DNA of 32,587 nucleotides from Deltaproteobacteria bacterium (GTDB taxonomy: Bacteria > Desulfobacterota > Syntrophia > Syntrophales > UBA8958), in assembly GCA_029561465.1 (NCBI GenBank), contig JAKQIZ010000101.1, positions 1-32,587 of the forward strand, given 5' to 3'. Of the stretch, positions 9,906-24,109 are shown one piece after another. The notes under the pieces are model-generated. The model had not been told where the DNA came from. It worked only from the letters and a program-made list of their open reading frames with translations, and did not search any database. The position numbers were made by a program, and so were the translations under genes. Numbering within the stretch: position 1 is the stretch's first letter; each line of letters opens with the position of its first letter.

Positions 9906-9934
9906 CCTATAAATAAATCCCCTGTCCATGTCAA
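9906..9934 (-). promoter_or_regulatory. Promoter of the acyl-CoA synthetase gene
   Basis: On the - strand a perfect TTGACA (complement of 9929-9934) and TATAGG (complement of 9906-9911) are 17 nt apart, the ideal sigma-70 spacing. Transcription would begin near 9899. Confidence 0.6.
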
Positions 9935-10027
9935 TCCTTCGTTTGTCCCGAAGAGGCGCAGGACATCATGACCCCTTCCGGAGGAGGCGGTGCCGTGGTT
10001 TCGCCCCGCCCCGTTCATGGTTTCACC

Positions 10028-10055
10028 TTGACATCTCATCCATTTATGCGAAAAT
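10028..10055 (+). promoter_or_regulatory. Putative promoter of the CoA-transferase/GNAT gene
   Basis: A perfect TTGACA (10028-10033) is followed after 16 nt by GAAAAT (10050-10055, 4/6 match). The -10 element is weak, so the assignment is tentative. Confidence 0.4.
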
Positions 10056-10140
10056 GGGCTTACGGTGGCAAATCCCGATCTTACCTTCCCTCGGCGCCGG
10101 CCCCGGAACAACATATTTCTTTCGAGCGAGGAATAAGATT

Positions 10141-12015
10141 ATGTCGTTGGAGAAATGGAAGACCCTTTATCCGGATAAATTCGTCCCGGAAGCGGAGATC
10201 TTCAGTCACATCCACCGGGGGGACACCATCTTCATCGGCTCGGCCTGCGCCGAACCCCAGCATCTGGTCCAAGGTCTGATCCGTTATGTAAAGTCTTACC
10301 CCAAGGCCTTTTTCGACGCCGAAGTAATCCATATCCGTTCCCTCGGCGTGGCCCCGTATGCCACGGAGAAATTCAAGCAGAACTTCCGCCACAACTCCTT
10401 CTTCATCGGCGACAGCACCCGGGACGCGGTCAACAAGGGCGTCGCCGATTACACCCCCGTCCTTCTCTCGGAAACGCCGGAGTTGTTCCGCCGGGGGCTG
10501 GCCCGGGTTGACATTGCCCTCATCCAGACCTCCCTCCCGGACGAGCACGGCTATCTAAGCCTGGGCATCAGCGTTGACATCGTCAAAGCCGCCGCCGAGG
10601 AGGCCAAGATCGTCGTCGCCCAGGTAAACCATTTCATGCCCCGGGTCCACGGCGACTCCTTCATCCATATCCGGGACATCGATTATATCGTCCCTTATGA
10701 CGAGCTCCTCCTGGAATACACCAAAGGGGTCAACTCGGAGATCGTCATGGGGATCGGCAAGTACGTCGCCCGCCTCGTGGAGGACGGGGACACCATCCAG
10801 GTGGGCTACGGCAGCATCCCCAACGCCGTCCTGGCCAATCTCAAGGACAAGCGGCATCTCGGGGTCCACACGGAACTGATCGGCGACGGGATCATCGAAC
10901 TCATGAAGACGGGGGTCATCGACAACTCCAAAAAGACCCTCAATCCCGGCAAAACGGTAACGACCTTCTGCCTCGGTAATCAGGACACCTACCGTTATCT
11001 CCATGACAACCCGGCCATCGAGTTTCGGACTATCGACTACACCAACAACCCCATGATCATCGCCCGGCACGACCGGATGACGGCCATCAACAGCGCCCTG
11101 GAGATCGACTTGACCGGTCAGGCCACGGCGGAGTCCATCGGCCGGATCTTTCACAGCGGCGTAGGCGGCCAGGCTGATTTCATGCGGGGGGCCGTCCTGT
11201 CCAGGGGGGGCAAGTCAATCCTCACCCTCCAGTCCACCGCCGCCTGCGATGTCGTATCCCGCATCGTCCCCATGCTCCGGGAAGGTTCCGGGGTCACCCT
11301 GACCCGGGGGGACATCCACTACGTCGTCACGGAGTACGGAATCGCCTACCTCCACGGCAAGAGCATCCGGGAACGGGCCATGGAACTCATCGGCATCGCC
11401 CATCCCAAGTTCCGCCCCTGGCTCATCGACGAGGCCAAGAAGCTGGGGCTCATCTACCGGGACCAGGCCTTCATCCCCGGCGTCCGGGGGGAATACCCCG
11501 AGCACCTGGAGACCTACCGGACCACGAAGAAGGGGATCAACATCCTCTTTCGTCCCATCAAAATCAGCGACGAACCCCTCCTCAAAGACTTCATCTACTC
11601 CCTCTCCGATCAGAGCCTCTACCGCCGCTTCATGTCGGCCCGGAAGGACATGCCCCACGAGGCTCTTCAGAAACTGGTAATCATAGATTATACAGTTGAA
11701 ATGGCCATCCTGGCCATCATGTTCCGGGAGAAGGCGGAGGAGATCGTCGGCGTGGGCCGATACTACATCGACGAAACGGCCCATGCGGCGGAAGTGGCTT
11801 TTGCTGTAAAGGATACCCACCATCGCATGGGCATCGGGACGGAACTGCTAGCCTACCTGACCTATCTGGCCAAAAGACAGGGGCTGTTGGGTTTCACGGC
11901 GGAGGTCCTCTCGGAGAACCAGCCCATGCTCCACACCTTCGAGCAGGGAGGTTTCGACCTGGAGAGGAAAAACGTCGCCGGCCTCTGGGAGCTCAAGATG
12001 ACGTTCCGGGAATAG
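10141..12015 (+). CDS. Acetyl-CoA hydrolase/transferase fused to a GNAT acetyltransferase
   Basis: 624 residues. About 1-465 form an acetyl-CoA hydrolase/4-hydroxybutyrate CoA-transferase domain, with GYGSIPNAVLANL followed by HTELIGDG; the Glu near residue 245 is the likely catalytic glutamate of family I CoA-transferases. About 470-624 form a GNAT domain with the acetyl-CoA pyrophosphate loop HHRMGIGTEL. The first half moves CoA between acyl groups or hydrolyses acyl-CoA; the second probably acetylates a protein or small molecule. The frame extends upstream to 9928, but ATG 10141 is preferred: GAGGA lies 8 nt before it, and the extension falls in the promoter region with no homology. It is divergent from the acyl-CoA synthetase, whose activity the GNAT domain might modify; that link is inference. 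Confidence 0.9.
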   Translation: MSLEKWKTLYPDKFVPEAEIFSHIHRGDTIFIGSACAEPQHLVQGLIRYVKSYPKAFFDAEVIHIRSLGVAPYATEKFKQNFRHNSFFIGDSTRDAVNKGVADYTPVLLSETPELFRRGLARVDIALIQTSLPDEHGYLSLGISVDIVKAAAEEAKIVVAQVNHFMPRVHGDSFIHIRDIDYIVPYDELLLEYTKGVNSEIVMGIGKYVARLVEDGDTIQVGYGSIPNAVLANLKDKRHLGVHTELIGDGIIELMKTGVIDNSKKTLNPGKTVTTFCLGNQDTYRYLHDNPAIEFRTIDYTNNPMIIARHDRMTAINSALEIDLTGQATAESIGRIFHSGVGGQADFMRGAVLSRGGKSILTLQSTAACDVVSRIVPMLREGSGVTLTRGDIHYVVTEYGIAYLHGKSIRERAMELIGIAHPKFRPWLIDEAKKLGLIYRDQAFIPGVRGEYPEHLETYRTTKKGINILFRPIKISDEPLLKDFIYSLSDQSLYRRFMSARKDMPHEALQKLVIIDYTVEMAILAIMFREKAEEIVGVGRYYIDETAHAAEVAFAVKDTHHRMGIGTELLAYLTYLAKRQGLLGFTAEVLSENQPMLHTFEQGGFDLERKNVAGLWELKMTFRE

Positions 12016-12040: not shown

Positions 12041-13090
12041 TCAGTTCCGGGTTTGCAACCATGTTTGCAGGCGTCGCAGTCCCTCCGCCATGGAGACGCG
12101 GGGCTCGTAGCACAGTTCCCGCCGGGCGGCGCCGATGTCGAACCAATGGGTCGTAGCCAGTTCCTCGGCGAGGAAGCGGGTCATCCGGGGTTCCCCGGGC
12201 AGCTTCAGGACAAGATGGAGCCGCTCGATGACCCCCCCCATAAGGACCGCGACGGTTTTGGGGATTCCCCGACGGATCGGCGGGATCTCCGCCAGGGCCA
12301 GAATGCGGTTGACAAAATCCCAGAGATTCACGGGCTCGCCGTTGGAGATGAAATAGGGACGCCCCGCGGCCCAGGGATTCTCCGCCAGGGCCTGGGCGGC
12401 AAGGAGATGGGCGGCGGCGGCGTTGTCGATATAGGTGGTGTCGATGATGTTCTTTCCGTCACCGACACGGAGGATCTTGCCGGCCCGGGCCTGGGCGAGG
12501 ATGCGGGGAATGATCTGGGTGTCTCCCGGCCCCCAGATGAGGTGGGGACGGAGCGACAGGGTCCTCAGGGCGGGCCTGTCGGCTTCCAGAACCATTCTTT
12601 CCGCCTCCGCCTTCGTGGCCGTATAGGGGGAGCGGGGCCGGTCCGGATAGGGAACCGATTCATCGACTCCAGCCAGATCGGCATCGCCGAATACTACGCT
12701 GGCGGAGCTGGTAAAGACCAGCCGGCCCACGCCGGCGCGACCGCAGGCCGCCAGGATATTCTTCGTGCCGACCACATTGGGGCGGTAAAAGGAGTCGAAA
12801 TCCCCCCATACCCCCGCCCGGGCGGCGTTGTGAAAGACGACGGCACAGTCCGCGCAGGCCCGCCGCACCGCCTCGGGATCCGCCAGGTCGCCCCGGATCA
12901 CTTCCACTCCCCGGCGCCGCAGCTCCGGATAGTCACTCCGAGCAAAACTCCGGACGGCGTAACCCGCCGCCAGAAGGTGGGAGACGATGGCGCCGCCCAA
13001 AAACCCGCCGCCGCCGGTCACCAGGGCCACCGATCCCCGCGCCGCTCTTGCCGGTGAGTCTCCTTTTATTTCTCCGGCATTAACGGGCAT
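12041..13090 (-). CDS. oleD: OleD, NAD(P)-dependent 2-alkyl-3-ketoalkanoic acid reductase
   Basis: An extended short-chain dehydrogenase/epimerase-like protein of about 349 residues. The Rossmann motif GGGGFLGGAIV is near the N-terminus; the active-site YxxxK occurs in SPYTATKAEAERMV, with the partner Ser in FTSSASVVFG. Family members in ole clusters reduce the beta-keto acid made by OleA to a beta-hydroxy acid. Its place as last gene of an oleA-B-C-D series, 36 bp after the oleC-like gene, is the main argument for OleD over a generic 3-beta-hydroxysteroid dehydrogenase-like enzyme. ATG 13088-13090 is chosen; a TTG 18 nt upstream is also open. Neither has a clear ribosome-binding site, so translation may depend on coupling. 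It converges with the CoA-transferase gene, 25 bp away. Confidence 0.85.
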   Translation of the reverse strand: MPVNAGEIKGDSPARAARGSVALVTGGGGFLGGAIVSHLLAAGYAVRSFARSDYPELRRRGVEVIRGDLADPEAVRRACADCAVVFHNAARAGVWGDFDSFYRPNVVGTKNILAACGRAGVGRLVFTSSASVVFGDADLAGVDESVPYPDRPRSPYTATKAEAERMVLEADRPALRTLSLRPHLIWGPGDTQIIPRILAQARAGKILRVGDGKNIIDTTYIDNAAAAHLLAAQALAENPWAAGRPYFISNGEPVNLWDFVNRILALAEIPPIRRGIPKTVAVLMGGVIERLHLVLKLPGEPRMTRFLAEELATTHWFDIGAARRELCYEPRVSMAEGLRRLQTWLQTRN

Positions 13091-13126
13091 AGGGGCACCA
13101 AAGGGCAAAGAGGAAGGTTCTCAACG

Positions 13127-14800
13127 TCATTTCAGCCGTTCCTCCGCCCAGACGGTGAGCTTTTCCCGGAAGATCTTGGCGTTGTGGCGGATATCCACGG
13201 GGAATCCGTGATGGTATAGCACGGTATTTATCATCCTGGTGATGGCGTTGTCCCGGGCAATCGCCAGGAGTTCCTCCGTCAAGCGGTCCTTATCACGACC
13301 ACTGTCTCCGGCCTTCAGTTCGATGATGATGACCGGCCGTTTGTTTCCCGAGACGCCCACCCCCACCAGGGCCGAACGTCTTACCCGGGGATGGCGGTTG
13401 AAGAGGGCTTCACAGGGGATGGTATAGAGGGTGCCGCCGGCTGTTTCCACCCGATGTGCCTTCCGGCCGCAGAACCACAGCCGTCCCTTGTCGTCCAGAT
13501 ACCCCACATCGCCCATCCGATGCCAGACACCGCCGTCGTCGTCCCGCATCTTCGCCAGCAGAGTCGCCTTGGGATTCTGGAAATATTCCTTGGTCGTTAC
13601 AGGTCCCCTGACGGCGATCTCCCCAATATGTCCCGGCGGGAGGATTACGGCTTCTCGGATCCGGGACAGGGGTTCCTCGGTTATACCGATGATTCGGACT
13701 TCCATACCCGCCAGCGGCCGGCCGACGCAGGTCCCACCCCCACTTTCGGAAATCTTACGGGTCTCCGTCAGGACCTCCCGGCTGTCGATATCGCTCACCG
13801 GCAGCACTTCCGTGGCGCCGTAAGGGGTATGGATCCGGGCATCGGCGGGCAGCAGGCAATGCACGGCCTCCATGAGGTCGGGCCGTACCGGGGCGCCGGC
13901 GGTTATGATCCGTTTGACGGCGGGAAGTTTCTTGCCCGTCTCGGCCCCGTAGCGAGCCAGGTTCTCCAGCAGGGCCGGGGAGCCATACATGCTCTTGCAG
14001 TTGTGGGTCTCCAGGGCGTGGATGATCTTCCGGGGGTCCGCCTGGGCCGGCCGGGTGGGGTCCATATCGGGGATGACGGAGGTCATCCCCAAAACGGCGT
14101 CGAAGAGAGAAAAGAGCGGGAAGGTCGCCAGATCCACCTCATCCCGACCGTAACCGAAATGGGTACTCAGATAGCGCACCTGGGCGTCGAACATCCCATG
14201 TTCGTAAACGACACCCTTGGGGGGACCGGTGCTCCCGGTGGTGAAGAAGATCGCCGCCCGTTCGCCGGGATGCGCGGGTACGGGCGTGAAGGGACGCCAG
14301 GGCCCGCGGCGGAAATCGTCCAGGGTATAGCCGCCCCAGAACAGGCGCCGACCAACGGTAATTTTTACCTTTACCGTGGAGAATTTTCCCGGCGAGAGAA
14401 CGCGCAGTATATGGGCCAGAGGAATCCCGATAAAGGCCTCGGCGCTTATGGAAGAAAGGTTTTCCACGAGTTTCTGCCGGCCCATGCCGGGATCGATCAT
14501 CACCGGGACGGCCCCGACTCGGAAGAGGGCGAAGGTGACGGCGAACAGCTCCAGGGACGGCCGCACCATCAGGATCGTCTTTACCCCCTTGACAATCCCC
14601 GCTTGGTGAAAACCATGGGCAAGGCGGTCCGCCTCCTCCTCCAGTTCCCGGAAGGTCCAGTGGATAAAATCATGTGCCCCGGGCGCGGCCGGGCAGATCA
14701 CCGCCTTTTTATCCGGCATGAGGTGTGCGACACGGGTGAGATGCTCGCTGAGGTTCGCGGTGGCAACGGTTTTATCTTCCACTTCCTCTACCCTTCCCAC
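13127..14800 (-). CDS. oleC: OleC, beta-lactone synthetase (AMP-dependent ligase superfamily)
   Basis: A 557-residue ANL-superfamily enzyme. Visible motifs include the phosphate loop FTTGSTGPPKGVVY, the YGATE adenylate motif, GDVGYLDDKGRLWFCGR and a C-terminal HGFPVDIRHNAKIFREKL with the late catalytic Lys. The HGFPVDIRHNAKI ending is typical of OleC proteins, which use ATP to close a beta-hydroxy acid into a beta-lactone with release of AMP. The start is GTG (complement of 14798-14800) with GGAGG 9 nt upstream. It is followed 36 bp later by the oleD-like gene and preceded by the oleB-like gene. An ordinary fatty-acyl-CoA ligase is less likely given the context. Confidence 0.88.
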   Translation of the reverse strand: MGRVEEVEDKTVATANLSEHLTRVAHLMPDKKAVICPAAPGAHDFIHWTFRELEEEADRLAHGFHQAGIVKGVKTILMVRPSLELFAVTFALFRVGAVPVMIDPGMGRQKLVENLSSISAEAFIGIPLAHILRVLSPGKFSTVKVKITVGRRLFWGGYTLDDFRRGPWRPFTPVPAHPGERAAIFFTTGSTGPPKGVVYEHGMFDAQVRYLSTHFGYGRDEVDLATFPLFSLFDAVLGMTSVIPDMDPTRPAQADPRKIIHALETHNCKSMYGSPALLENLARYGAETGKKLPAVKRIITAGAPVRPDLMEAVHCLLPADARIHTPYGATEVLPVSDIDSREVLTETRKISESGGGTCVGRPLAGMEVRIIGITEEPLSRIREAVILPPGHIGEIAVRGPVTTKEYFQNPKATLLAKMRDDDGGVWHRMGDVGYLDDKGRLWFCGRKAHRVETAGGTLYTIPCEALFNRHPRVRRSALVGVGVSGNKRPVIIIELKAGDSGRDKDRLTEELLAIARDNAITRMINTVLYHHGFPVDIRHNAKIFREKLTVWAEERLK

Positions 14801-14869: not shown

Positions 14870-15817
14870 TTACGTCATAAGCGGATGCCGCTCTAAAAAA
14901 TCCCTGATCAGGGCTACGACTGTCTCGCCTTCGTCTTCGAGTATGTAATGCCCTCCCCGGGGAAAGACATGGACCTCCGCCTCGGGAAACCGCCGTCGCC
15001 ATTCCGCCAGAGCGACCTCATCGAAGACGAAGTCCTTTTGCCCCCAACAGATCATCATGGGGATCCCACCCAGAAGATGGAGGTGCTCGTCCGTCCATTG
15101 GGTGAGCGGATAGCTCCGGTCCCCTGGATATAGAGGGATGTCTTGAACAAATCGCAGGGTGGCGATCCGGTTTTTCCAGGTATTGTAAGGGGCGGTGAGT
15201 CCCGTGCGCACATCCGCCGGCATGTCCTTTTCCACGCCCAGGAAGGTTGCCAGATAAGAAAAGGCATTCAAACCCCGGACCAAAAGAGCCGGCAGGACCG
15301 GGAAGTGACGGAGGAAAGACAACTGCCAGGGGATGCCTTTGTCCGGTGGAATGACAAAGGCCCAGGTATTGAGGATCACGATCCGGGCGATCCGCTCCGG
15401 GCGCCGGGCCGCGCAGGCCATGCCGATCATCCCCCCCCAGTCATGAACGATGAGCGTTACGTTATTCTTAAGATCCAGATAATCCAGGAAGGATTCCATA
15501 TTGTCCACGTGACTTGTCAAAGTATAGGTAAAATCCTTCTCCGACGGGCGGGAGGAAAGTCCGCAACCGACATGATCGGGAACGATTACCCGGTAATCGG
15601 GACGGAGGGCCTTCACGATCTCCCGGTAATAAAAGGACCAGGTGGGATTGCCATGGACGGCTACCACCGGATCGCCCTGCCCTTCATCAAGATAGTGGTA
15701 AATAAACCCCGGAGCCTTCAGCCAATAATCGGCAAAGGGATAAAGACGCCGATGCGGGGCAATATCAAAGGGGAGACTTATGTTATCGGCGTCGATATCG
15801 GCAGGCGTGAATCTCAT
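14870..15817 (-). CDS. oleB: OleB, beta-lactone decarboxylase (haloalkane-dehalogenase-like alpha/beta hydrolase)
   Basis: 315 residues with the alpha/beta-hydrolase fold of the haloalkane dehalogenase branch. The oxyanion motif VHGNPTWSFYYR, the nucleophile elbow VHDWGGMIG (Asp nucleophile) and a C-terminal catalytic His in PRGGHYILED are all visible. OleB uses this Asp to open a beta-lactone and release CO2 and an alkene. Gene order between the ketosynthase pair and oleC supports OleB. The in-frame upstream TTG at 15847 would add 10 residues, but ATG at 15815-15817 is preferred; no strong ribosome-binding site is seen for either. True haloalkane dehalogenase activity cannot be excluded by sequence alone. 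Confidence 0.87.
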   Translation of the reverse strand: MRFTPADIDADNISLPFDIAPHRRLYPFADYWLKAPGFIYHYLDEGQGDPVVAVHGNPTWSFYYREIVKALRPDYRVIVPDHVGCGLSSRPSEKDFTYTLTSHVDNMESFLDYLDLKNNVTLIVHDWGGMIGMACAARRPERIARIVILNTWAFVIPPDKGIPWQLSFLRHFPVLPALLVRGLNAFSYLATFLGVEKDMPADVRTGLTAPYNTWKNRIATLRFVQDIPLYPGDRSYPLTQWTDEHLHLLGGIPMMICWGQKDFVFDEVALAEWRRRFPEAEVHVFPRGGHYILEDEGETVVALIRDFLERHPLMT

Positions 15818-15903: not shown

Positions 15904-16791
15904 TCAGGCCTGATTTCTGTATAGCGCCAGGGATGCCGTCAGTCCGGCGCCGACAGTCAGAAAGAGGCAGTTCTTCGCCGCGGCGAAGCGACCCGTACTC
16001 ATGGCTCGCTCCAGGGCAAAACCGATGCCGGCGGTGTGAACATCGGCGAGCTTATCGGTCACATCCACCAGTTTTAATTCCAGATCCCTCTTCTTTTTGA
16101 GCTCTTCCAGAAATCCCCGAGGACTCTGGGAGGGAATAACCAGGTCTATGTCCTTCATGGTAAGGGACAATTCCTTTAAAAAGGAATCGAGATTCTCCCG
16201 GGCAAACCGGGCACAAGAGGCGGCAAACCCTTCCGCCTGTTTCACAACGAGGATGTTGCGCATCTTGCCCTTATATTCCATCCATTCGATGCGCCCGGTC
16301 AGGTCGTCGATAAACCGGCCTTCCGTAGCCGTCCGGTAATGGAGAAACCCATGGCCCTCCGTGCCGCGGGACAGCAGAATCGCCGCCGCGGCCGGGGTAA
16401 AGTGGAAGCCCTCGGTTCTACCCGGCACCGGGTCGGCATCGGCGGTCACCACCATGCCGTAGTCGATGTCTCCGGAATGGAGATAGCCATCGACGACCAT
16501 CATGCCGGTGAGCATCCCGCAGCCACCGTTGGTCAAATCGAAGGAAAAGGTACTGCCGCCGCCGGCGAATATTTCGTTGGCCCCGATTTCCTTTTGAATC
16601 AGGGTGGCTATGGCCGGCTCCCCGATATTACGATCCCGATAGACCCCCGTGTTGACGAGCAATCCCAGCATATTGGGATCCAGACGGGTTTTTTTCAGAC
16701 ATTCTTTCGCCGCCCTGATCTCCATGTCGATAGACCCCCGACGGAAAAATCCGGGGGTGTTCAAAGCCACCGCTTCAATTTTCGATCCCAT
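15904..16791 (-). CDS. Second OleA-like (KAS III/thiolase-fold) subunit lacking catalytic His and Asn
   Basis: 295 residues, shorter than the roughly 340 of OleA because the N-terminal region before the first core strands is abbreviated. The segment TGVYRDRNIGEPA matches the OleA region that carries the catalytic Glu (here Glu58), and FDLTNGGCGMLTG carries Cys91. The position of the catalytic His reads VIPSQSPRG (Ser221 instead of His), and the Asn position reads DVHTAG (His252). It therefore probably cannot complete Claisen condensation alone. It overlaps the 3' end of the full OleA-like gene by 17 nt, with GGTGGAAA before its ATG, so the two are translationally coupled, suggesting a heterodimer like LstA/LstB (lipstatin) or NltA/NltB (nocardiolactone). 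It has its own Cys motif and fold, so it is not a fragment of its neighbour. Confidence 0.85.
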   Translation of the reverse strand: MGSKIEAVALNTPGFFRRGSIDMEIRAAKECLKKTRLDPNMLGLLVNTGVYRDRNIGEPAIATLIQKEIGANEIFAGGGSTFSFDLTNGGCGMLTGMMVVDGYLHSGDIDYGMVVTADADPVPGRTEGFHFTPAAAAILLSRGTEGHGFLHYRTATEGRFIDDLTGRIEWMEYKGKMRNILVVKQAEGFAASCARFARENLDSFLKELSLTMKDIDLVIPSQSPRGFLEELKKKRDLELKLVDVTDKLADVHTAGIGFALERAMSTGRFAAAKNCLFLTVGAGLTASLALYRNQA

Positions 16792-17881
16792 ATCTTTCCA
16801 CCAAATGATCCATAGTAAAGATTAATACGCCAATGATCAGACCGGAAGCGAGGGCGATAAACATCAGTTTCTCTCCCGGTCGGAAAAGTCTTTCGTTGAG
16901 ATAACGGTACAGGGCCAGGAAGTGAGACGTCGAAGCGGTGTTGCCGTACTCCTGGAGATTGACGACGATGTTTTTCGCCCGGACGCCGAAATAATGGGCC
17001 AGATGCTTGTCTCCCGAACGTATGGCCCGTATGGATGTCTGATGGGGAACGACATGATCGATATCTCCAAACTCCAGGCCCGCTTCTTTCAAGGCCTTCT
17101 CCAGAATAGGCGGCATATCGGCTATGGCCACCTGATGAATCTTGCGCGCATTGGTTACCATCTGGGCCCCGGGGGCACGAGGACAGGCCCAGCCGGTACA
17201 GAGATCGCTGTACCGGGCCAGGGTGATGAAATTGGACATCTTCAATTCCGCCTGCCCGACCTGAGATCTCTCCAGAATCACCGCCGCGCCGCAATCACCG
17301 ACGGTAAGCGACGCCAGTTGATCGCTGAAGATGGTCTTGACCCGGGGTACAGCGTTGCGGCTGATGGAAGTAATATTCTCCCCGGAGATGACCATTCCGC
17401 GCTTGATCACCCCGCGGCGGATGAAATCATTCAGGATGGAAACCCCCGTCAGCATCCCGGCACAGGCGTTGGCAATATCGAAGTTGAGGGCGTTATTCGC
17501 CCCTAGGGCTTCCTTGACGTAAAGGGACAGGGGCGGCTCGAAGACAAAGGCATTGCCGTCCTTGTATTTGGAAATGGAGCAGCAGATGATCATTTCCAGA
17601 TCCGCGGCCTGGTATGCGGAGTGTTTCAGGCAATCGCGAGCGGCGTCAAGGGAAAGGACATAGGAATCCTCCGTTTCCGAACATACCCGCCGTTCCCGGA
17701 TGCCCGTGAGCCGTTCCAGATCGAACTTCCCCCACATCTTCACCCCACTCATCAGGTCCCGGGTGGAAAGGCGTTGCTCGGGCACCTTGACGCCGATGCT
17801 TTCGAAGCGGCTGGAAAAAGGAGGCGATGATTGCTTCCCTGTTATCGGCGGCGTTTTTCCTTGCGTAGCTGCTGTCTTCAT
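16775..17881 (-). CDS. oleA: OleA-like ketosynthase with complete Cys-His-Asn triad
   Basis: 368 residues from ATG at 17879-17881. A KAS III/thiolase-fold protein with Cys140 in NFDIANACAGMLTG, His280 in VVPHQTS and Asn314 in EYGNTAST. Glu115 in VFEPPLS matches the position of the OleA glutamate that acts across the dimer interface. The spacing is very close to that of Xanthomonas OleA (Cys143, His285, Asn315, Glu117). OleA joins two fatty acyl-CoAs head to head, giving a 2-alkyl-3-keto acid. The frame stays open to a TTG at 17962, but that stretch contains the likely promoter, so the ATG is preferred; GGAGG lies 15 nt upstream, rather far. First gene of the ole operon. A plain FabH role is less likely because of the context and the Glu motif. 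Confidence 0.87.
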   Translation of the reverse strand: MKTAATQGKTPPITGKQSSPPFSSRFESIGVKVPEQRLSTRDLMSGVKMWGKFDLERLTGIRERRVCSETEDSYVLSLDAARDCLKHSAYQAADLEMIICCSISKYKDGNAFVFEPPLSLYVKEALGANNALNFDIANACAGMLTGVSILNDFIRRGVIKRGMVISGENITSISRNAVPRVKTIFSDQLASLTVGDCGAAVILERSQVGQAELKMSNFITLARYSDLCTGWACPRAPGAQMVTNARKIHQVAIADMPPILEKALKEAGLEFGDIDHVVPHQTSIRAIRSGDKHLAHYFGVRAKNIVVNLQEYGNTASTSHFLALYRYLNERLFRPGEKLMFIALASGLIIGVLIFTMDHLVERYGIEN

Positions 17882-18082: not shown

Positions 18083-18460
18083 ATGCTGGATATGGCGAAA
18101 AAGGCGGCACTGATCGGCACGGGGATGGCCCTGGCGACAACGGACAAAATCCGGGAAGTCGTTGAAGATTTGACCCACAAGGGTGAATCCGCGCAAACGG
18201 ACGCGCAGACAGAGGCGCGAAAGGCGGTGGAAGTCCTGACCGAAAAGACCCGTCAGACCCGTGAGTCGATAGAAGGAGAGACGGAAAAGATAATGACGGA
18301 TTTCAGCGCCTTTTGGTACTACACCAACCTCGCGGACGAATTGGAGGAACGGGTGGAAAAGATTGTCGCCGTCATCTTGAAAAAACTCCATATCCCGGAG
18401 CGGCAGGAGCTGGAGGATATCAAGAAGCGGATTGAGAACATGGAAAGGGAAGAGGTCTGA
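18083..18460 (+). CDS. Phasin-like coiled-coil protein
   Basis: 125 residues. A short hydrophobic, Ala/Gly-rich N-terminus (about 1-20) is followed by long charged helices that look like coiled coil (about 20-75 and 85-125). The ending, LKKLHIPERQELEDIKKRIENME, resembles the COG3937 phasin-like proteins, which are proposed to coat polymer or lipid inclusions. GGGGAGG 7 nt before the ATG gives a strong start. It is divergent from the ole operon, with its own strong promoter, and heads a set with the LolA-like gene 48 bp downstream. A role in binding storage granules or hydrocarbon droplets is inference. Small coiled-coil proteins are easily misassigned, so the family call is moderate. Confidence 0.7.
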   Translation: MLDMAKKAALIGTGMALATTDKIREVVEDLTHKGESAQTDAQTEARKAVEVLTEKTRQTRESIEGETEKIMTDFSAFWYYTNLADELEERVEKIVAVILKKLHIPERQELEDIKKRIENMEREEV

Positions 18461-18508
18461 AGCATTATCGTTGAACAATCACGATCTTTTATTATGAGGA
18501 GGCGGGAA

Positions 18509-19321
18509 ATGGCAAAAAGGGCGATTATCTGGGTGTTCGGGATCTTGTTTCTGTTCAGTGCCGCCGGTGTATCGGCGCAGATGACGGGGCGGCAGGTCAT
18601 GGAGAAACAGAAGGAACGTCACAAGGTAAAGACGGAAATCGGCAAGGAAGACATGATGCTGGTGGAAAAGAGCGGCGCCAAGGAAAACCGCCAGGTGGTT
18701 CGTTACGCCAAGGAGGTGGGCAGGGATCTGCACCGTTATCTGGTGGTCTTCCATAGCCCTGGCGACATCCGGGGCACCGCCCTGCGCACTTGGGAAAAAA
18801 AGGGTGGCGACAATGACCAGTGGCTCTACTTGCCGGCGCAGAAGAAAGAGCAGCGTATCGCCAAGGCCGGTAAGAAAAATTACTTCATGGGTACCGATTT
18901 TACCTATGAAGACATGGAGCCGGAAGACCTGGACAACTTCAATTACAACATCATCCGCTCAGAACAGTTCAACCATGAAGGAAAGGCCCACGACTGCTAT
19001 GTAATCGAAGCCCTGCCCGCCAATGCAAAGAAAAAGAACGAGAGCGGTTATGCCAAACGGATCATGTGGATCGAAAAGGCCAACCTCACCACCCTGAAGA
19101 CGGATTTCTACGACAAGCGTAACAAGCACCAAAAAACCCAGTTCAACTATAAGTTCGAGACGATTTCCGGCACCGTCATGCGCCCGAAGCAGACCCTAAT
19201 GAACAATATCGAGAAAAACCACAAGACGGTGACGGCCACCAGAAACCGGCAGGTCAACATTAATCTTAGCGACGGCACCTTCACCGAGCAGTTCATAATC
19301 TCCGGGAAGCATCTTCAATAG
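18509..19321 (+). CDS. LolA-like outer-membrane lipoprotein-sorting protein (exported)
   Basis: 270 residues from ATG 18509, which has GAGGAGG 6 nt upstream; another ATG at 18494 overlaps that site and is less likely. A Sec signal peptide covers about 1-20 (cleavage likely near VSA-QM). The mature part has the pattern of the LolA_like (PF17131) group: QWLYLPAQKKEQRI, then NYFMGTDFTYEDMEPEDLDNFNY. Members of this group commonly accompany an outer-membrane barrel protein and an RND/MMPL transporter, and are thought to carry lipidic molecules across the periplasm. A barrel gene follows; no RND gene is within the window. It is not the housekeeping LolA by length or motif. Confidence 0.82.
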   Translation: MAKRAIIWVFGILFLFSAAGVSAQMTGRQVMEKQKERHKVKTEIGKEDMMLVEKSGAKENRQVVRYAKEVGRDLHRYLVVFHSPGDIRGTALRTWEKKGGDNDQWLYLPAQKKEQRIAKAGKKNYFMGTDFTYEDMEPEDLDNFNYNIIRSEQFNHEGKAHDCYVIEALPANAKKKNESGYAKRIMWIEKANLTTLKTDFYDKRNKHQKTQFNYKFETISGTVMRPKQTLMNNIEKNHKTVTATRNRQVNINLSDGTFTEQFIISGKHLQ

Positions 19322-19375
19322 CACGGAATAATCTCCCGGGGGACACGGTTTGCATTACGTTCTTTCAACAAAAAA

Positions 19376-19431
19376 CACCTGATGTCGGGAACCTGATCGT
19401 TTTCATTCGGAAGCATGGGAACGATCAGGTG
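19376..19431 (+). repeat. Inverted repeat with two alternative left arms
   Basis: AACGATCAGGT (19420-19430) can pair with ACCTGATCGTT (19391-19401, 11 bp, 18-nt loop), or its part ATCAGGTG (19424-19431) can pair with CACCTGAT (19376-19383, 8 bp). The pairings are mutually exclusive. The element lies about 50 nt before the barrel gene start, with no U tract, so it may be a leader switch, an operator or an RNA-stability hairpin. Confidence 0.45.
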
Positions 19432-19482
19432 CTTATACCTTTCATTCCTCATGACGGAGAAAAAACCGGGAGAATACTGCCT

Positions 19483-20970
19483 ATGGAGAAAGGCTGCCTG
19501 ATCAAAGGTTCCCTTGTCCTGCTGATCATCATTGTTTTTATCTGTCCCTCTCTCGCCGGGGCCCAGCCGCCCATGGATCTGCAGCAGGACGATCTCCTCA
19601 AAGAGATGGAAAAGGTCTCAGAAGAGGGTGATCAAGGGGCGACACCTGCCGCCACGCCGACCAAACCGGCAACAATCCTCTCGAAACTGGTCGATAATTT
19701 TCACGGCAGTCTCCGCCTCCGGGGGATGCATTTTTGGCAGAACCCCCCGGACCGGGAGGGGGCGGACAACCGCAACGACTTCGGGAACACCCTGCTGAAG
19801 ATATCCGACAAGACGGGATATAAAAACCTCGATTTGAATATCGGCGCGTGGGTGGAATACGGAAACGAGGAAAACACCTATTCCGGCACGGTGTTCAGCG
19901 AATTCTGGCAGGATCTGGATCGACGGCGGCGGATCTTCTACATCAACGATCTCTACCTCAACTACAGCCGCGATAACTTCAATTTTCTGGTAGGCAAGAA
20001 GACTATCACCAACGGTATGTCAACCCTCTACCTGCCCTCGGACCGGATGCGTCCCCAGGACCTGAACGACCCCCTGGACGTGAAGGATCTCAACATCTGG
20101 CAGGCGAAGCTGGACTGGGAGGTCGCCGAATCTTCAACGATGACCCTGGCCTTCCTGCCGGTTTACCAACCCCAGAAACAGCCCAGTGAGACTTCCCGCT
20201 GGATGGGGGAACGCAAACAGGGGGACAACACGGAATTCGATCTCTACGATGCGGGCAATGTCAACATGAAAGACGACGTCGCCAAGGTTACGGATACGAA
20301 TTTCGGTTATTTCGCCCGTTTCAAGAAGAAAGGATTTCACGGCTGGGACTTCTTCGCCTCCTTCTACCACGGGCCCAATCCCTTCTGGGTCGTCCGTGAA
20401 GAAAGGATTCCGGGGCCGTTCCCCGGAATTACCTTGATTCAACGCGTCAAGGAGGTAGTCAAGGTGGATGATTACGCCGCCGGCTTCTCCACTACCTATG
20501 AAAGCTGGGAGTTCCACGGCGAGTTGGTCTATAATTACAGCTATGACCGCAAGGACGACGATTATTTCAACTATGTCGCCGGTTTCACCTATACCTTCGA
20601 CGATTTTGCCAAAAAGATCTGGCTGGAAAAGATCGATGTCACCGTGGAATATGCCAACGAGATCATCACGAGATTCCAGAACGCCGAAAACTACGTGGCC
20701 AGTTCCAAAAAATCGCGTCTAGGCCGCAACGACATCCTGAGCCGGATAAATTTCGAGTACAGCAACAAGCTGTCTTTCCAGTTTATATGTAATTTCCAGC
20801 TCACCCGGGGAGAAGAGGGGCGGTTTCAAAGACTGGAGGCAAAATACAAATTACGGGACGGTCTCATCACTAAACTTGCCGGAGAATTTTTCGGCGGTCA
20901 ATCGGACAGTATGTACGGCCGCTGGGTCCGCAACGACAGGATCATCTTGGAAATGGAATACAGTTTTTAA
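19483..20970 (+). CDS. Outer-membrane beta-barrel protein (DUF1302-like)
   Basis: About 495 residues from ATG 19483. A signal peptide with a long hydrophobic core covers residues 1-28 (cut near LAGAQ). Then come a short acidic and Ala/Pro-rich linker (about 30-60) and alternating strand-like segments to the C-terminus, which ends EMEYSF with the terminal Phe expected of barrel proteins. The stretch FNFLVGKKTITNG with MRPQDLNDPLDVKDLNIW resembles DUF1302-type proteins. Such proteins often pair with LolA-like and RND genes; here it follows the LolA-like gene. An open frame reaches 19429 upstream, but the added residues break the signal peptide and run into the inverted repeat. Substrate unknown; export of a lipid or hydrocarbon is a guess from position. 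Confidence 0.8.
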   Translation: MEKGCLIKGSLVLLIIIVFICPSLAGAQPPMDLQQDDLLKEMEKVSEEGDQGATPAATPTKPATILSKLVDNFHGSLRLRGMHFWQNPPDREGADNRNDFGNTLLKISDKTGYKNLDLNIGAWVEYGNEENTYSGTVFSEFWQDLDRRRRIFYINDLYLNYSRDNFNFLVGKKTITNGMSTLYLPSDRMRPQDLNDPLDVKDLNIWQAKLDWEVAESSTMTLAFLPVYQPQKQPSETSRWMGERKQGDNTEFDLYDAGNVNMKDDVAKVTDTNFGYFARFKKKGFHGWDFFASFYHGPNPFWVVREERIPGPFPGITLIQRVKEVVKVDDYAAGFSTTYESWEFHGELVYNYSYDRKDDDYFNYVAGFTYTFDDFAKKIWLEKIDVTVEYANEIITRFQNAENYVASSKKSRLGRNDILSRINFEYSNKLSFQFICNFQLTRGEEGRFQRLEAKYKLRDGLITKLAGEFFGGQSDSMYGRWVRNDRIILEMEYSF

Positions 20971-23689: not shown

Positions 23690-24109
23690 CTAAAAAGGCA
23701 CGTCGTCACCGGGAAGGGATTCCGGACTGAAATAGGACGGCGCCGGCGCTTCGGCGGCATTAGCCGCCGGTCCTTTCTGCTGGCCCTTTGCTTCCAGCAT
23801 CTGCATATTGCCGGCAATGATCTCGGTAGTATAACGTTTCACCCCCTCCTTGTCTTCCCATGCCCGGGTCTGGATCCTTCCCTCGATAAAGACCAGCCGG
23901 CCTTTAGTTAGATAACTATTGCATATCTCGGCGAGTTTTCCAAAGGTAACTATGCGATGCCACTCGGTCTTTTGAATCCGCTCTCCATTTTTGTCCTTTC
24001 TTTGCTCATCCGTGGCGAGGTTAAAATTGGTTATCATTAACCCATCGGGTGTGTAGCGAACTTCCGGGTCGCCCCCCAGTCTGCCGACAAGAATAACTTT
24101 ATTGATCAT
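23690..24109 (-). CDS. ssb: Single-stranded DNA-binding protein
   Basis: 139 residues. The N-terminal OB-fold (about 1-105) opens with [23 protein letters not shown] and includes [21 protein letters not shown] and [17 protein letters not shown], standard for bacterial SSB. A short flexible tail rich in Ala, Pro and Gly leads to the acidic tip DDVPF, which recruits replication and repair proteins. The protein is somewhat short compared with E. coli SSB (178) because of the compact tail. AAGGAGGG just before the ATG gives a very strong start. It is divergent from lysS and read alone. Confidence 0.97.

Follow-up and report, generated by a model that had tools for sequence, protein, structure and literature searches.

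The window, i.e., the whole stretch of 32,587 bases analyzed here, is contig C47 of a draft genome of 2.6 Mb, which is an estimated 92% complete and 5.6% contaminated. According to the ORF list and the sequence, five minus-strand genes follow each other in one direction, namely oleA1, oleA2, oleB, oleC, and oleD (Table 1). The earlier note had described two thiolase-fold (KAS-III) genes overlapping by 17 nt, and this was borne out, with both proteins matching Pfam ACP_syn_III_C above its cut-off of 26.6 bits (OleA1 65.2 bits, OleA2 40.9 bits). A ribosome-binding-like sequence, GGTGGAAAG, was read before the ATG of oleA2, within the 3' end of oleA1, and the overlap itself suggests that the two genes are translationally coupled. 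The pair is not a product of chance, because it was present in the same order in nine of the 11 genomes that make up the window's family-level group (the window's own genome among them). The overlap was 17 nt in six and 11 nt in two of the eight relatives carrying the pair in this group. An overlap of 17 nt was also found in three annotated A-B pairs on Rhodococcus plasmids and, within the same order, in the pairs of L051 and L055 from a different family.

Table 1. Features of the pair-containing ole operon in the window
Feature	Position	Strand	Description	Evidence
oleA1 (A subunit)	16775..17881	-	368 aa; KAS-III with Cys140, His280, Asn314, Glu115; LstA-like, putative catalytic subunit	ORF, Pfam/NCBIfam, residues, tree
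oleA2 (B subunit)	15904..16791	-	295 aa; KAS-III fold with Gly90, Ser221, Asp250, Glu58; TGIxxRR segment deleted; LstB-like	
oleA1/oleA2 overlap	16775..16791	-	17 nt	ORFs; same overlap in relatives and Rhodococcus plasmids
oleB	14870..15817	-	alpha/beta hydrolase, likely beta-lactone decarboxylase; H-D-W-G-G nucleophile motif	Pfam Abhydrolase_1; ole-operon OleB tree
oleC	13127..14800	-	olefin beta-lactone synthetase type ligase	NF006754 709 bits (cut-off 478); OlefBLtnSynXan 624 bits (cut-off 900)
oleD	12041..13108	-	2-alkyl-3-oxoalkanoate reductase type	NF042422 404 bits (cut-off 580)

Two neighboring regions lie on the other strand. Just past oleD, an ORF at 9928-12015 (+) joins acetyl-CoA hydrolase/CoA-transferase domains to a GNAT acetyltransferase domain. 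On the oleA1 side, a divergent block at 18083-20970 (+) encodes a phasin-like protein, a LolA-like protein, and a 513-aa protein without a Pfam match. The phasin/LolA-like block adjoined the pair operon in seven of the nine carriers of the group (the window, L042, L043, L044, L046, L048, and L049), and it could possibly serve in storage or outer-membrane delivery of the product.

As to the active site, the pair, the overlap, and the OleA1 residues of the earlier note stood, while its account of OleA2 had to be revised concerning Cys91, His252, and a "shortened N-terminus". Cys140, His280, Asn314, and Glu115 of OleA1 were all present in the sequence and in the alignment. In OleA2, the supposed catalytic Cys91 was off by one: the N-G-G-C-G of OleA2 aligned gap-free with the N-A-C-A-G of OleA1 in MAFFT, and therefore Gly90 occupies the catalytic position and Cys91 is the next residue. 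The same register was obtained with hhalign when a 16-row B alignment was compared with 10 canonical OleA sequences (probability 99.7, E 2e-25). Ser221 had been assigned correctly to the His position (MAFFT), but the residue at the Asn position was Asp250, with His252 lying two residues further. Loss of this Asn is not a trait of the B family, since 10 of 29 B proteins have Asn there. The N-terminus was also not simply shortened; the first strand is kept, and an internal deletion removes about 31 residues, the counterpart of residues 37-67 of OleA1. The deleted segment is the region of the TGIxxRR motif (TGIRERR in OleA1), which, judging by FabH structures, presumably helps bind CoA. An AlphaFold2 model of OleA2 built from a three-row alignment (the window, L009, and L010) reached a mean pLDDT of 32.7 and was set aside.

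The retention of Glu58 in OleA2, on the other hand, was confirmed. It falls in the same column as LstB E60 and Glu117 of Xanthomonas campestris OleA, and both OleA1 (Glu115-Pro116) and OleA2 have Glu-Pro at this column. An alignment with OleA and with the LstA/LstB orthologues of lst clusters, as proposed in the earlier note, placed the triad in A and showed the Glu column to be common to B, LstB, and OleA. The column mapping is anchored by the orthologues themselves, since they show the published residue numbers of LstAB, i.e., C128, H271, and N305 in the A proteins of L084 and L085 (two of the five clusters) and E60 in the B protein of L085 (one of five, the others having the Glu at positions 57 to 59). 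In residue counts that take in the partial A row of L057 and the rows of G185 and G038, the catalytic Cys was found in 29/29 A proteins with data vs. 0/29 B proteins and the catalytic His in 30/30 vs. 0/29 (one B row being gapped there). Glu occupied the Glu58 column in all 29 B proteins; among the 30 A rows there were 26 Glu, two Lys, one Asp, and one row without data. In separate alignments, all 16 B rows and all 10 canonical OleA rows had the Glu, whereas the 16 A rows were not uniform at this position. These counts are consistent with only the B Glu being important for activity. They are suggestive only, because the three exceptions among 29 A proteins represent two lineages, probably two events, and are not significant alone.

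Sequences of the A and B proteins formed separate clades in a 60-row tree (98/97 for A and 100/99 for B), each including the proteins of five complete lst-type clusters, while canonical OleA together with X. campestris OleA constituted a third clade (100/100). The partial A of L057 and the rows of G185 and G038 were left out of this tree, for which the program issued a long-branch warning, concerning FabH above all. The window's group was sister to the Rhodococcus stand-alone pairs (100/98 for A and 91/83 for B), and the lst pairs grouped with the pairs of the other family (94/95 for A and 100/98 for B). A-A and B-B distances were correlated with r = 0.959 over 28 pairs, a value reached in none of 2000 permutations (maximum 0.242); however, such agreement is expected for any adjacent genes that are inherited together. 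Identity of the window proteins to two lst orthologues was 35 and 37% for A and 30 and 30% for B.

OleA1 is therefore not an OleA proper: it was only 22% identical to X. campestris OleA, fell outside the clade of that protein, and scored 141 bits against the OleA family NF006720, whose cut-off is 285 bits (OleA2 70 bits). No protein above this cut-off was found in the window's genome, which is 92% complete, and its remaining KAS-III matches were FabH on contig C29 and one on C10.

A tblastn search of 72,556 plasmid records with OleA2 matched 25 records, among them eight of Rhodococcus and six of Streptomyces. Eight plasmid stretches were inspected, of which five held complete lipstatin-type clusters (A, B, ligase, reductase, NRPS, and formyltransferase) and the other three, from Rhodococcus, held A and B alone. 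Searches with further B proteins recovered the same Rhodococcus and Streptomyces records and weak matches, the one new match being a second lst-type B on a Rhodococcus plasmid already listed. The R. qingshengii plasmid NZ_CP077418.1 carries a stand-alone A-B pair at 229620-231591 and a B gene at 387326-388231, the latter being 96% identical to the B of the lst-type cluster in L088. The three stand-alone pairs (L081:8794-10756, L082:7914-9885, and L086:7914-9912) lie near universal stress protein genes, and wax ester/triacylglycerol synthase genes were found near two of the three.

Within the order, 24 of 155 genomes were matched by OleA2 at E values up to 1e-6. The 17 genomes with E below 1e-20 were taken to carry a true B, and the seven at E between 1e-6 and 1e-10 were treated as FabH background. 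Many genomes were drafts in many contigs, and absence of a gene beside a contig end does not amount to true absence. Nine of the 17 belong to the 11-genome group of the window, and in all nine A and B were followed by oleB; six of these operons had all five genes, two were cut by contig ends, and that of G153 was without oleD in the stretch. Two further stretches, L009 (a Lake Pavin metagenome, Deltaproteobacteria) and L010 (Syntrophus sp. UBA8958), are apparently the same contigs as two of the nine and were not recounted. L011 (Ca. Hebobacteria) was rejected as a relative, since it read as an ordinary FabH.

The other eight B-carrying genomes of the order held ten pairs. In L050 and L052, the pair was followed by an OleB-OleC fusion (L050:5813-8476 and L052:9048-11642), with oleD behind, and the same genomes hold a separate canonical oleA operon (L122 and L124). 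In L051, L055, L056, L057, L058, and L059, the pair occurred without oleB or oleC in the stretch, some of the stretches being short. The pair of L059 (7475-12089), without oleBCD, adjoins genes of the PEP phosphomutase and thiamine-pyrophosphate enzyme types, a neighborhood that suggests a phosphonate-linked lipid; a methyltransferase gene lies upstream of the pair in both L059 and L058. In two genomes of one genus, A and B were fused in one ORF of about 690 aa (L053:6609-8666 on the plus strand and L054:7964-10051 on the minus strand, 686 and 696 aa from stop to stop). An OleD-like reductase adjoins both, and no OleB or OleC relative was seen in the stretch around either fusion. The product of such a set could be 2-alkyl-3-hydroxy acids.

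In a draw of 395 genomes from the phylum, a B profile scored at least 290 bits in six genomes, five of which had supplied rows to the profile. The sixth, G185, lies outside the order and carries two pairs, scoring 321 and 290 bits. The draw then dropped to 121 bits, and everything from there down was treated as FabH background. The two pairs of G185 (L119:5612-7659 and L120:4477-6578) are about 10 kb apart, and the only OleD-like (25%) and OleC-like (24%) matches seen in their vicinity were weak. Canonical OleA exceeded its cut-off in 11 of the order's 155 genomes, all of them members of a single family other than the window's. In seven of these the neighborhood was inspected and oleB was directly behind in each, and two of the eleven, G034 and G039, possessed a pair operon in addition to the canonical one. 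OleC exceeded its cut-off in 44 of the 395 genomes of the phylum draw. Beside it were the pair in four genomes (all of the window's group), a single canonical OleA in 24, and none recognized in the stretch in 16; the B-profile search of the phylum, apparently on the same draw, detected no B protein of at least 290 bits in the other 40.

The genes behind the pair are clear relatives of ole genes that are divergent from the characterized proteins, since OleC exceeded the cut-off of NF006754 while OleC and OleD remained below their equivalog cut-offs. OleB gave a match below cut-off to the haloalkane dehalogenase family (scanned from 15814). Its H-D-W-G-G motif was present in 9/9 pair-carrying genomes of the window's group and in the two pair operons of the other family. 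The pair thus stands in the same operon as an oleB gene, as the earlier note had claimed, and a beta-lactone decarboxylase role of OleB is likely from its sequence. The window OleC was 45-53% identical to that of single-OleA operons from other parts of the phylum (21 loci) vs. 42-45% to lst ligases (five loci), and the respective values for OleD were 46-57% (19 loci) and 34-37%. However, the window OleC shared only 42-43.5% identity with that of canonical single-OleA operons within its own order (five loci), and is thus no closer to these than to the lst ligases, which argues against the window having simply taken oleBCD from those operons. In the OleC and OleB trees the pair operons were scattered among other ole operons and did not fall together. 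Constraining them was nevertheless not rejected in AU tests, either for OleC with the window group, the two pair operons of the other family, and lst held together (p-AU 0.086), for OleC with the pair operons together without lst (p-AU 0.11), or for OleB with the pair operons together (p-AU 0.147); the long OleC rows L193 and L198 were dropped before the OleC test. A repeated exchange of OleA for the pair is accordingly the favored, if not demonstrated, history.

Several features of known systems are relevant here. According to the review PMC12141560, activity is lost in LstA C128A, LstA H271A, and LstB E60A, neither LstA nor LstB could be obtained in soluble form by itself, and counterparts of LstB are widespread and always clustered with LstA. 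In X. campestris OleA, the Glu of one subunit acts as the base in the active site of its partner (mBio 2020, PMC7064751). The system of Streptomyces toxytricini for lipstatin, a lipase inhibitor, resembles the window in its adjacent A and B KAS-III genes, with Cys-His-Asn in A and an essential Glu in LstB, and the lst-cluster orthologues share the two clades and the residue columns, their B being likewise the smaller subunit. The difference lies in what follows: in the five lst clusters, genes for ligase, reductase, NRPS, and formyltransferase come next and no OleB is annotated, whereas in the window the pair precedes oleB, oleC, and oleD, and the gene adjoining oleD is the CoA-transferase and not an NRPS or formyltransferase gene. 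Single-OleA oleABCD operons, such as that of X. campestris, have their OleA in the same place before oleB-oleC-oleD, and OleA1 shares its Glu-Pro and Cys-His-Asn; but there one homodimeric protein takes the place of two.

Based on these comparisons, it is quite probable that OleA1 and OleA2 assemble into an obligate heterodimer of KAS-III subunits from the LstA/LstB lineage, which would perform the OleA step for oleBCD with Glu58 acting in the OleA1 site. The gene order, the residues, the two clades shared with lst-cluster proteins, the fusions in relatives, and the oleBCD genes with the OleB motif are direct observations, from which we infer the formation of the dimer, its chemistry, substrates, and product, and any mixed-chain selectivity. 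In the OleA1 site, where Cys140 would be acylated by a first acyl-CoA, a second acyl-CoA would lose its alpha proton to Glu58 of OleA2, acting across the dimer interface. The 2-alkyl-3-ketoacid formed in this way would pass to OleD for reduction, OleC would then form the beta-lactone ring, and OleB would decarboxylate the lactone to an internal olefin; an internal olefin is expected mainly because oleB is present. OleA2, without a working site, would contribute the Glu and make up half of the interface that binds the chains. The earlier note had already proposed an LstA/LstB-like heterodimer; the triad-less B with its Glu, the shared clades, the LstAB residue columns, and the A-B fusions of relatives speak for this part, although OleA1 cannot be called an OleA. 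The trans role which it suggested for the Glu of the second subunit agrees well with the LstB E60 column, the 29 of 29 B proteins, and, by analogy, the division of labor in LstAB (PMC12141560). That OleA2 also shapes an acyl pocket, so that two different chains could be joined, is conceivable by extension. The natural A-B fusions are further evidence for a one-to-one complex.

Since OleA1 keeps Glu115 and the triad, a homodimer like that of X. campestris OleA, working through Glu115, could by sequence be active, and OleA2 could then have a different role as a non-catalytic stabilizer or regulator, or be a decaying duplicate. PqsB/PqsC of Pseudomonas aeruginosa offers a precedent, being a KAS-III heterodimer of one catalytic and one triad-less subunit in which PqsB is described as lacking catalytic residues and as probably serving as a scaffold; however, PqsC is without the Asn that OleA1 has as Asn314, and the chemistry is different (PMC4807248). 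We consider a homodimer unlikely. The Glu is kept in 29 of 29 B proteins, none of which has the catalytic Cys or His, and B is therefore not decaying at random. Moreover, three of 29 A proteins carry Lys or Asp in place of the Glu, A-B fusions exist, and LstB E60A abolishes LstAB activity (PMC12141560). A very improbable reading is that OleA2 is FabH-like, has nothing to do with OleA chemistry, and came into the operon by happenstance. Its best NCBIfam matches were indeed general beta-ketoacyl-ACP synthase III models, below cut-off. The earlier note had named a grouping of the second gene with FabH as evidence against its interpretation, but B formed one clade with the LstB orthologues, apart from host FabH. 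All 29 counted B proteins adjoin or are fused to an A protein, and the two B copies of G185, outside the profile's own rows, scored far above the next match.

A heterodimer would also be compatible with an operon that makes a beta-lactone or another natural product and no olefin, with the OleB-like hydrolase serving, e.g., in resistance or release. The membership of the pair in the lipstatin-type lineage, the OleC and OleD scores below equivalog cut-offs, and an OleC no closer to the same-order canonical operons than to lst ligases would fit such a product. On the other side are the oleB with H-D-W-G-G inside the operon, for which the five lst clusters have no annotated counterpart, and the greater proximity of the window OleC and OleD to single-OleA operons from other parts of the phylum than to lst ligases and reductases. 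In addition, a Pfam scan of eight flanking ORFs in the part of the window before position 24000 detected no NRPS or formyltransferase domain. We regard a non-olefin product as improbable, and an olefin made through the OleA1/OleA2 heterodimer is preferred.

Nocardiolactone is another product with paired OleA homologues, NltA and NltB, encoded in a beta-lactone cluster, and this cluster is not known to contain OleB. LstAB-type heterodimers are already known, and it is the coupling to OleB and the A-B fusions that look new. Neither a two-subunit OleA in an oleB-containing operon nor A-B fusions were found among the top-ranked papers of the literature searched, judged by title and opening of the abstract, most subscription papers being outside its scope, and this is not proof of novelty; PMC7158056 had no match for a second oleA. 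It appears from the genes that a two-protein condensing enzyme opens the olefin operon of an uncultured Syntrophus-like bacterium, while most of the examined relatives use one protein.

A broader proposal may be advanced tentatively, with somewhat more doubt than confidence: an obligate heterodimeric hydrocarbon synthase replaced the homodimeric OleA, possibly more than once, its subunits were fused in one lineage, and its asymmetry lets bacteria choose donor and acceptor chains and so make defined mixed-chain olefins. "More than once" here refers to the window's family-level group and, separately, to the two genomes of the other family with fused OleB-OleC. In homodimeric OleA the active sites are equal, and the roles of donor and acceptor chain are therefore hard to separate by mutation. 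With one live site and one Glu donor, standing before a complete olefin gene set, these roles would be separable and directly testable, and the natural A-B fusions offer a single-chain version for structure work. The results suggest that use of the LstAB module is not confined to making beta-lactones and that a Syntrophus-like bacterium could build a single hydrocarbon from two different fatty chains.
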